In this document: in pieces, positions 23,602 to 24,659 of the stretch
Numbering within the stretch: position 1 is the first letter of the stretch
Layout of the letters: each line of letters starts with the position of its first letter
Source of the DNA: Hyphomicrobiales bacterium
GTDB taxonomy: Bacteria; Pseudomonadota; Alphaproteobacteria; Rhizobiales; Rhizobiaceae
Length of the DNA stretch: 64,000 nt
NCBI GenBank assembly: GCA_900470195.1
Contig: UEIJ01000007.1
Coordinates: forward strand, 124,001 to 188,000
Direction of reading: 5' to 3'
The notes under the pieces: model-generated
Seen by the model: the letters and a program-made list of their open reading frames with translations, nothing else
The model's database searches: none
What the model was told of the DNA's origin: nothing
Made by a program: the position numbers and the translations under genes

Positions 23602-23627
23602 AAAGGGCGCCTGAAACGCCCTTTTTT
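23602..23627 (+). terminator. Intrinsic terminator of cobT
   Basis: AAAGGGCG (23602-23609) pairs with CGCCCTTT (23617-23624) and runs into T residues. It also abuts the end of the convergent transporter gene, so it may serve both. Confidence 0.85.
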
Positions 23628-24283
23628 CATGCCTTTTCCGCTGTCGTCCGGTTTGGCGCGTAAAGCGTCGGGGCGAAGACGGCGAGGATTGCCCCATAGG
23701 GGATCAGCATCAGCGTCCCCATGATGACCTTCACAAAGAAGTCACCGAAGGCCAGCGACGCCCAGAGCGGCACGCCGAGGCCGAGGAAGGACGCCGGTTC
23801 GGCAAGCGACGAATCGGGCATTCCGGTGAGCGTATCGATCCACGCAAAACCGGCTGCAAAGGCAATCGAGAAAAACAGGACCGTATCGAGCACGGAGCCG
23901 AACATGGCGGCGGCGAAGGGCGCTTTCCACCAAGTCTGGCGGCGTAGCCTGTCGAAGACGGTAATGTCCATCAACTGTGCGAGAAGGAAAGCGGAGCCGG
24001 AGGCGATCGCGATGCGCGGGGTTGCCAGCCAGATCGACATGACAACGCCCAGCACGAAACCGGCATAGACGACCTTACGTGCGGCGGCGGGGCCGAAGCG
24101 GCGATTCGTCAGGTCATTGACCAGAAAGGCGACGGGATAGGTAAAGGCGCCATAGGTCAGTACTTCACCGAGGCCGAAGTGCTGGAACGGATACTGGACA
24201 AGAATGTTCGACGCGGCAACCGCCACGCACATGGCCAGTATCGCAGGCATAAGCCGGGAAAAAGAGGGTGTCTCGATTGACAT
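23627..24283 (-). CDS. yhhQ: Queuosine precursor transporter, YhhQ/VUT family
   Basis: A 218-residue inner-membrane protein of the DUF165/vitamin-uptake-like (VUT) family, which imports the queuosine precursors preQ0/preQ1. About six helices are readable, with the family segments F-T-Y-P-V-A-F-L-V-N-D-L-T-N-R near residue 48, R-I-A-I-A-S-G-S-A-F-L-L-A-Q near 90, and the C-terminal F-G-D-F-F-V-K near 180. The gene is alone on the - strand after the rpmB terminator. Its ATG forms the 3' end of a preQ1-I-like fold (24281-24309), which suggests translational repression by the imported ligand. No queuosine synthesis genes are in the window. Confidence 0.9.
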   Translation of the reverse strand: MSIETPSFSRLMPAILAMCVAVAASNILVQYPFQHFGLGEVLTYGAFTYPVAFLVNDLTNRRFGPAAARKVVYAGFVLGVVMSIWLATPRIAIASGSAFLLAQLMDITVFDRLRRQTWWKAPFAAAMFGSVLDTVLFFSIAFAAGFAWIDTLTGMPDSSLAEPASFLGLGVPLWASLAFGDFFVKVIMGTLMLIPYGAILAVFAPTLYAPNRTTAEKA

Positions 24284-24309
24284 TTTTTTATCCTGGGTGA
24301 TGGAACCAG
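24281..24309 (-). promoter_or_regulatory. Candidate preQ1-I riboswitch overlapping the yhhQ start codon
   Basis: On the - strand, CUGG (24309-24306) pairs with CCAG (24296-24293) as P1. The loop begins UUC and then has CAU (24302-24300), which can pair with the AUG start codon (24283-24281) as the P2 pseudoknot, after an A-rich tail GAUAAAAAA. A lone C (24297) directly before the 3' strand of P1 is where preQ1-I aptamers place the ligand-reading cytosine. The AGGA ribosome site overlaps P1, so ligand binding would hide both it and the AUG. The order of parts matches known preQ1-I RNAs; P1 has only four pairs and one loop is short. Confidence 0.6.
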
Positions 24310-24310
24310 C

Positions 24311-24340
24311 AAAAAAGGCCGACGAGAGCCGGCCTTTTTT
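24311..24340 (-). terminator. Intrinsic terminator of rpmB
   Basis: AAAAAAGGCCG (24311-24321) pairs with CGGCCTTTTTT (24330-24340). On the - strand it lies 23 bases past the rpmB stop and ends in a T run. It separates rpmB from the riboswitch and transporter gene, whose transcript must therefore come from readthrough or an internal promoter. Confidence 0.88.
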
Positions 24341-24362
24341 GTCAAAACTATTGGCCGGAAGC

Positions 24363-24659
24363 TCAGGCAGCGGCTGCTTCAGCCTGCTTCTTTGCGATCT
24401 GGCGCTTCAGCAGGCGAGCGCGCTGCGACAGTTCCTTGTCGTCGGACTTGACGAGGAACGCGTCGAGACCGCCGCGATGTTCGACCGAACGCAGGGCGTT
24501 GGCGGAAACGCGCAGACGATAGCTCTGGCCGAGCGTTTCGGAAATCAGCGTAACATTGCAGAGGTTCGGCAGAAAGCGGCGACGCGTCTTGTTGTTCGCG
24601 TGGCTGACATTGTTGCCGTACTGGACCGACTTGCCGGTCAATTCACAAGCGCGGGACAT
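24363..24659 (-). CDS. rpmB: 50S ribosomal protein L28
   Basis: A 98-residue ribosomal protein, starting [10 protein letters not shown] and carrying the L28 motifs [19 protein letters not shown] and R-V-S-A-N-A-L-R. L28 is part of the large subunit. I chose ATG 24659 from homology and the GGTGAGACC ribosome region upstream; an earlier in-frame ATG at 24719 adds unrelated residues. The C-terminus ends in a Lys/Ala-rich tail. A strong terminator follows, so it is probably a single-gene unit. Confidence 0.97.

Follow-up and report, generated by a model that had tools for sequence, protein, structure and literature searches.

Organization of the yhhQ leader

The leader of a yhhQ-type queuosine precursor transporter gene was analysed in a 64-kb stretch of Hyphomicrobiales DNA (contig UEIJ01000007.1), here called the window, to which all coordinates refer; the leader element, yhhQ and its upstream neighbour rpmB all lie on the - strand. 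The element occupies 29 nt at 24309-24281 (-), read as CUGG, UUCCAUCAC, CCAG, GAUAAAAAA and AUG, and this AUG opens a 218-amino-acid open reading frame (ORF) of the yhhQ type. A sequence-only reading of the stretch had proposed a preQ1-I-like riboswitch for prequeuosine-1 (preQ1), very compact at 29 bases, in which stem P2 of the pseudoknot closes on the start codon itself and an AGGA motif overlaps stem P1. All of the parts were found, in the preQ1-I order, as follows.

24281..24309, - strand: whole element, a putative aptamer with an H-type pseudoknot that takes in the start codon (from the sequence as read, its bounded conservation and the score of covariance model R1)
24306..24309, - strand: P1 5' strand, CUGG, able to pair with 24293-24296 (covariation in relatives)
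24293..24296, - strand: P1 3' strand, CCAG, able to pair with 24306-24309 (covariation in relatives)
24297..24305, - strand: loop UUCCAUCAC, holding L1, the P2 5' strand and L2 (as long as the Escherichia coli type III loop UUCCCUCAC, with 8/9 letters identical)
24300..24302, - strand: P2 5' strand, CAU, a candidate anti-start-codon (aligns with C9-C10-U11 of the E. coli structure, PMC10622847)
24297, - strand: lone C, predicted preQ1-pairing specificity base, C14 in E. coli (164/165 contexts; 31/31 rows of the joint alignment)
24284..24292, - strand: A-rich loop L3, GAUAAAAAA (every position from -8 to -4 is A in 165/165 contexts, under a pattern that demanded at least four A)
24281..24283, - strand: AUG, yhhQ start codon and predicted P2 3' strand (in frame with the yhhQ core in 117/120 loci)
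24291..24294, - strand: AGGA, Shine-Dalgarno-like, overlapping P1 (read in the sequence; AGG absent in 5/120 relatives)
23627..24283, - strand: yhhQ-type queuosine precursor transporter (TIGR00697, 96.3 bits, cut-off 50.95; PF02592 (Vut_1), 81.6 bits, cut-off 27.2)

The two profile matches confirmed the proposed identity of the gene, and with it a position in front of a gene for queuosine synthesis or transport, as is characteristic of preQ1-I members; against the narrower profile NF008406, the 218-amino-acid ORF scored under the cut-off. The pyrimidine-rich 9-nt loop carries UU next to P1 and AC before the P1 3' strand. The flanking letters in the window give no extension of the four-pair P1, for which a folding energy of -3.5 kcal/mol was obtained without ligand. 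The folding energy of the 30-mer was ordinary (z -0.46) and not remarkable by itself. A pattern based on E. coli-like type III leaders had a single match in the window, namely this element, where 0.11 were expected (11/100 shuffles contained a match); a longer form of the pattern, with three mismatches allowed, was not significant (0.50 expected).

Conservation and distribution in the family

Relatives were sought in the GTDB family of the window, which we take to be Rhizobiaceae in the wide sense and whose named members include Brucella, Ochrobactrum, Falsochrobactrum, Phyllobacterium, Pseudochrobactrum, Nitratireductor and Bartonella. Within the genus, yhhQ was matched in 35/35 genomes searched, and the element was present with few changes in the 30 loci shown. 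The element pattern fitted 196/215 loci, a count that drew on 80 named loci and 105 further family loci and in which some genomes were counted twice; the flanks differed among loci. Column information was calculated from the 30-nt forms, which made up 165/187 contexts. Columns -29 to -1 held 1.8-2.0 bits, except for -24, -23, -19, -18 and -11 (0.8-1.4), and columns outside this block held 0.0-0.7 bits in the same 165 contexts of equal length, so that conservation is confined to the 29 bases originally proposed. The conservation of the lone C that the sequence-only reading had called for was seen in all contexts but one. The loop started with UU, as in the window, in 107/165 contexts and with UG in 58/165. 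Relatives with a GTG start and a matching change in CAU were absent from the 187 contexts, all of which had ATG under a pattern that also allowed GTG and TTG. As the patterns behind the 187 contexts and the count of 196/215 demand parts of the element, these percentages are conditional, which does not apply to the frame-anchored count and the model searches described below.

When loci were anchored on nothing but the yhhQ reading frame, P1 (4/4), P2 (3/3) and AAAA were found together in 69/80 relatives, and the complete combination occurred in 0/19,200 control windows from the upstream sequence of these loci. Since CAU was not demanded in this count, it bears out the conservation of CAU that the sequence-only reading had called for. 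Covariance model R1, built from 35 family sequences, scored 54.1 bits at the element, with the next match in the window at 10.3 bits. At an E value of 0.1 it gave matches in 358/394 family genomes and 101/109 genera; three of these (G135, G206 and G980, E near 0.07-0.09) were at chance level. Without them two genera drop out, and convincing matches remain in 355 genomes and 99 genera. Mostly one match was found per genome, with two in 5/358 genomes and, at a tighter limit, in G872 only. The latter (L274 and L301) has two element copies, each before an ORF that is yhhQ-like by its N-terminus.

The element was found to follow the gene. In a cross-count of 247 family genomes, in which 6/26 misses were scored from absence among the match rows, a convincing match was present in 219/234 yhhQ-bearing genomes (221 at E 0.1) and any match at all in 0/13 yhhQ-less genomes. 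Six of the 15 yhhQ-bearing exceptions were reduced genomes (1.1-1.6 Mb), three of them from genus g91, which includes a Bartonella record (L157 reads like L095). In the named Bartonella loci (L092-L110) the element had wobble pairs or was decayed, L093 being almost intact. Two loci labelled Comamonas (L031, a metagenome-assembled genome) and Bacillus subtilis (L074) carry Brucella- and Pseudochrobactrum-like yhhQ regions; mislabelling or contamination is probable.

Beyond the family, the order- and class-wide searches with R1, run with strict filters that can lose weak matches, gave no convincing match. Among 297 genomes of the order, 12 strong matches all belonged to the family and the other five genomes scored at most 24.4 bits; among 289 genomes of the class, only the window's own genome exceeded 24.8 bits. 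The surroundings of the weak outside matches were inspected by eye and judged to reflect chance. The gene itself was present in 84/150 genomes of the order, and of 29 order leaders read by eye only that of the family member contained the element. A pattern for the AUG type, which misses the subgroup with UG loops, matched 8 family genomes and 4 others in 200 genomes of the phylum, against 2 control matches; the four others showed no matching stem by eye and were rejected. A different shared block, approximately GGGCTATTCTCCCAT...AGGAGGGTGACAYATG, was noted in three yhhQ leaders from another family of the order (L245, L246 and L250; f44 g177). It includes a small hairpin, the loop of which could apparently pair with the Shine-Dalgarno sequence; the block was seen in related genomes only.

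Comparison with the E. coli type III riboswitch

In E. coli, a preQ1-I type III riboswitch sits in the yhhQ leader and its structure has been solved (Schroeder et al. 2023, PMC10622847). In this structure, U6 is followed by U7 and C8, which build the pocket ceiling, P2 consists of C9-G30, C10-G29 and U11-A28, L2 contains A13, C14 is the specificity base and A27 of the Shine-Dalgarno sequence touches preQ1; the type III loop is described as the tightest (PMC10622847). The leader in E. coli K-12 reads AUUGGG UUCCCUCAC CCCAAU GGUUAAUC AAAAAGG, with a linker that agrees with the published one. Although E. coli belongs to another bacterial family, the window shares with it the gene, the 9-nt loop length and 8/9 loop letters, as well as the U of L1, the A-C of L2 before the P1 3' strand, an A-rich L3 and, at matching positions, three Watson-Crick pairs in P2. 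The sole loop difference, C to A at position 10, is matched by a change of the partner from G to U, so that P2 is CAU/AUG, involving the start codon, in the window and CCU/AGG, involving the Shine-Dalgarno sequence, in E. coli. The type III 3' tail AAGG, which places the Shine-Dalgarno sequence in P2, is accordingly AAUG here, the pair exchange being compensated. Unlike that of E. coli, the linker of the family element is short and nearly fixed.

Type III, and not the type II RNA of Thermoanaerobacter tengcongensis to which the sequence-only reading had referred, is therefore the right comparison, and the weak point of a loop one base too short falls away. With preQ1-I types I and II (RF00522) the window has P1, the A-rich tail AUAAAAAA and the lone C in common, whereas its loop is shorter and its score far under the Rfam cut-off. 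The search with the Rfam PreQ1 model that had been suggested as a check thus formally failed: no match over cut-off was found at the element with the whole window, 801 nt or 35 nt as query. The crystallised E. coli type III RNA, however, also gave no RF00522 match at E values up to 10, so this test cannot decide the matter.

When 29 further leaders of the most E. coli-like yhhQ genes in the phylum sample were read, 25 gave the E. coli-type pattern with P2 complete, under an extraction that demanded AAAAGG. The remaining four were L308, with a 10-nt loop, and L314, L315 and L324, in which no element was apparent by eye. The same two letters of L2 vary in the family and in the E. coli-like group.

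Covariation of P1 and P2

Within the family, P1 was found as CUAG/CUAG in two genera (G230 and G963), as CCGG/CCGG in a third (G039) and as UUGG/CCAG in Bartonella. The family alignment left out 8/43 distinct elements that were not 30 nt long; P2 was invariant in it, as its selection favours. A joint alignment of family and E. coli-like leaders was also considered, with 31 rows, the linker removed and a spurious match (L147) left out. Here, 97.2% of cells could pair, and cells with both sides changed numbered 25, compared to a shuffled mean of 6.9 (reached in 0/500 shuffles, which ignore relatedness) and at most 4 in slid versions. The P2 pair 9-23 was AU in 21 rows, CG in 9 and GU in 1, and was unpaired in none. 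The compensatory changes that the sequence-only reading had looked for were thus seen in P1 of three genera and in P2 against the E. coli-like leaders; for the family by itself the pair statistics were weak, as set out below.

The start codon as a candidate pseudoknot strand

The frame of the AUG was examined in 120 distinct loci with a placeable yhhQ core motif. In three of them (L281, L296 and L298) the AUG was out of frame with yhhQ and the upstream AGG was lost, yet P1, CAU and AUG were intact. The first in-frame yhhQ ATG lay 7-14 nt downstream of the element AUG, and we infer that it serves as the new start; the element AUG runs into AUGGA there and could act as a Shine-Dalgarno sequence for it, so that these moved-start lineages resemble a return to Shine-Dalgarno hiding. 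Given that AGG is missing from five loci in all, the common feature is the AUG strand and not AGGA. In L298, a 5-codon ORF begins at the element AUG, and its stop codon and the likely start of yhhQ share letters in ATGA.

Interpretation and proposed mechanism

From these comparisons of sequence we consider it very likely that the element is a preQ1 riboswitch that acts on translation and has the preQ1-I fold, with the initiation codon as its expression platform and an ancestry from or with the gamma-proteobacterial yhhQ type III riboswitch. Those features of the preQ1-I fold that can be checked were all found except for stem length, the fold itself being one that we infer, and the ligand of the 29-nt element is probably preQ1. 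As P1 has only four pairs and AAGG is absent, it would be a variant related to type III rather than a strict member of it. A more specific proposal, which we hold with fair but lesser assurance, is that of a fourth, family-characteristic preQ1-I subtype, in which one compensated pair change moved the platform from the Shine-Dalgarno sequence to the initiation codon, giving a device of 29 nt including the AUG that is perhaps the smallest natural one.

In the mechanism proposed, preQ1 (and perhaps preQ0, prequeuosine-0, weakly) would pair with C24297 between P1 and P2, and the A-rich tail would dock in the minor groove of P1. P2 would then close on the AUG while P1 covered part of the Shine-Dalgarno-like AGGA. 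As an initiating 30S ribosomal subunit must occupy the letters held in the pseudoknot, it could not initiate, and synthesis of the importer would drop at high preQ1. Without ligand, the four-pair P1 would be weak enough for the ribosome to open. If this is true, preQ1 would control the uptake of queuosine precursors throughout a family that includes Brucella, Phyllobacterium, Nitratireductor and some Bartonella and for which the literature consulted gives no such control, and the element would be a natural case of an AUG serving as a strand of a ligand-bound pseudoknot, with ligand and initiating ribosome competing for the same three letters. The comparison also suggests that one compensated pair is enough to exchange an expression platform, and it shows that the Rfam PreQ1 model detects neither the window RNA nor the proven type III RNA of E. 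coli.

Several observations weigh against this interpretation. The weakness of P1 that the sequence-only reading had conceded remains, four pairs standing against the 5-6 pairs of class I RNAs, type III included (PMC10622847). RF00522, the best Rfam family on the 35 nt, scored only 11.0 bits (E 1.6, cut-off 39). The family alignment alone gave weak pair statistics, with one double change and 15/500 shuffles as high, and in the joint alignment the number of pairs with a change on both sides (4) was reached in 69/500 shuffles and is not exceptional. The only variation of P2 inside the family is wobble pairing in Bartonella copies that have decayed; the case for P2 covariation is therefore one exchange that separates two groups and may be a single event. 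Letters of the E. coli pocket ceiling are not kept everywhere, with U7 changed to G in 58/165 contexts and C8 to G or A in 49/165, and in the 3/120 loci with an out-of-frame AUG this codon cannot be a simple start codon. No promoter for yhhQ was found by a simple scan, and a terminator-like hairpin lies directly upstream. Finally, 11/23 element-bearing genomes tested had no QueF over cut-off, so that the ligand would there have to come from outside.

The last point, together with the ceiling letters that differ in about a third of contexts, also leads to the alternative that survives best, namely that an aptamer of the same fold binds another 7-deazaguanine, such as preQ0 or queuine, at least in the subgroup with UGGCAU or UGACAU loops. 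YhhQ carries both preQ0 and preQ1, but the type III RNA of E. coli has an approximately 138-fold preference for preQ1 over preQ0 (PMC10622847). U6 is conserved, as are the lone C and the A-run, and Tgt was found in 23/23 element-bearing genomes tested. We regard this alternative as unlikely. Less probable still is a DNA operator, in which a repressor of yhhQ would bind the inverted repeat CTGG-N9-CCAG. The stem is nearly invariant within the family, as would be expected of a half-site, and CUAG/CUAG and CCGG/CCGG, while preserving RNA pairing, preserve the inverted repeat as well and alone do not settle the question. However, the spacing of the element to ATG is fixed within about a base while anything from 31 to 192 nt separates it from rpmB, the A-run and ATG lie inside the conserved block, conservation stops at ATG, and the asymmetric loop equals the pocket of a solved RNA save for one compensated change.

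A ligand-free initiation element, in which an A-rich leader with its small hairpin would act as a standby site or enhancer, was given slightly less credence. An AGGA and an A-run before ATG are typical of efficient starts, and both precede ATG here; loop and stem nevertheless stay in the 5/120 loci where AGG is lost, and the loop differs in a single letter from the loop of a preQ1 aptamer. Moreover, the model mostly matches once per genome, at yhhQ wherever the sequence inspected included the gene, and the conserved lone C and U6 would have no obvious use in an enhancer. Chance resemblance kept by recent common descent, though the upstream region is generally similar within the genus, is contradicted by bounded conservation with diverged flanks and by the 99/109 genera with convincing matches and the empty control windows, and can be dismissed as extremely improbable.

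A riboswitch that hides the start codon would have partial parallels. SAM/SAH (S-adenosylmethionine/S-adenosylhomocysteine) and NAD+-II (nicotinamide adenine dinucleotide) riboswitches are cited as cases in which letters of the ribosome-binding site lie within the ligand-bound fold (PMC10622847). In the window, as in these, ribosome-binding letters would join such a fold, but the ligands are different. The folds differ from that of the window element as well.

Earlier reports

The type III model is reportedly the work of McCown et al. in 2014. In the literature searched, as far as it was accessible, no report of the element was found; the type III alignment of McCown et al. 2014 may already hold alphaproteobacterial sequences. 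The distribution is given as almost exclusively the phylum Pseudomonadota in the available part of a review (PMC11625349), which contains neither 'start codon' nor 'alphaproteobacteria' nor 'Rhizobi'. In different bacteria, yhhQ lies under various preQ1 riboswitches according to PMC5372724, with no mention of alphaproteobacteria in the part at hand. Neither did the accessible portion of a survey of alpha-proteobacterial motifs (PMC1273637) mention yhhQ, and the word riboswitch is absent from PMC11130926. The visible section of a table in PMC9495176 gives Brucella abortus one plus, taken as glycine. According to PMC11570991, the step from preQ1 to queuosine disappeared early in Bartonella; the text, as available, does not use the word riboswitch.

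Neighbouring genes and features

QueF and Tgt were both present in the genome of the window. As a predictor of the element, QueF was rejected as weak: it was over cut-off in 12/23 element-bearing genomes, compared to 5/15 genomes that bear yhhQ but no convincing element (one of the five marginal). Upstream of the element, two features were distinguished.

24363..24659, - strand: rpmB, encoding 50S ribosomal protein L28 (TIGR00009, 90 bits)
24311..24340, - strand: terminator-like hairpin after rpmB, ending one base 5' of the element (by folding; a similar hairpin in genus loci)

An rpmB-like ORF lay upstream at 208/227 element loci (duplicates included), and in L010-L014 and L025 it was retained with a longer spacer. 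The hairpin was not reported by a simple terminator scan of the locus. At 24311-24345 (-), TTGACA is followed by the terminator-like hairpin between rpmB and the element, an arrangement that is similar in genus loci with longer spacers. On the + strand, 24172-24340 gave a weak full-length match to the Rfam family BASRCI337 (Brucella small RNA CI337; RF02601), with 22.3 bits against a cut-off of 229, which we take to be a reflection of the hairpin.
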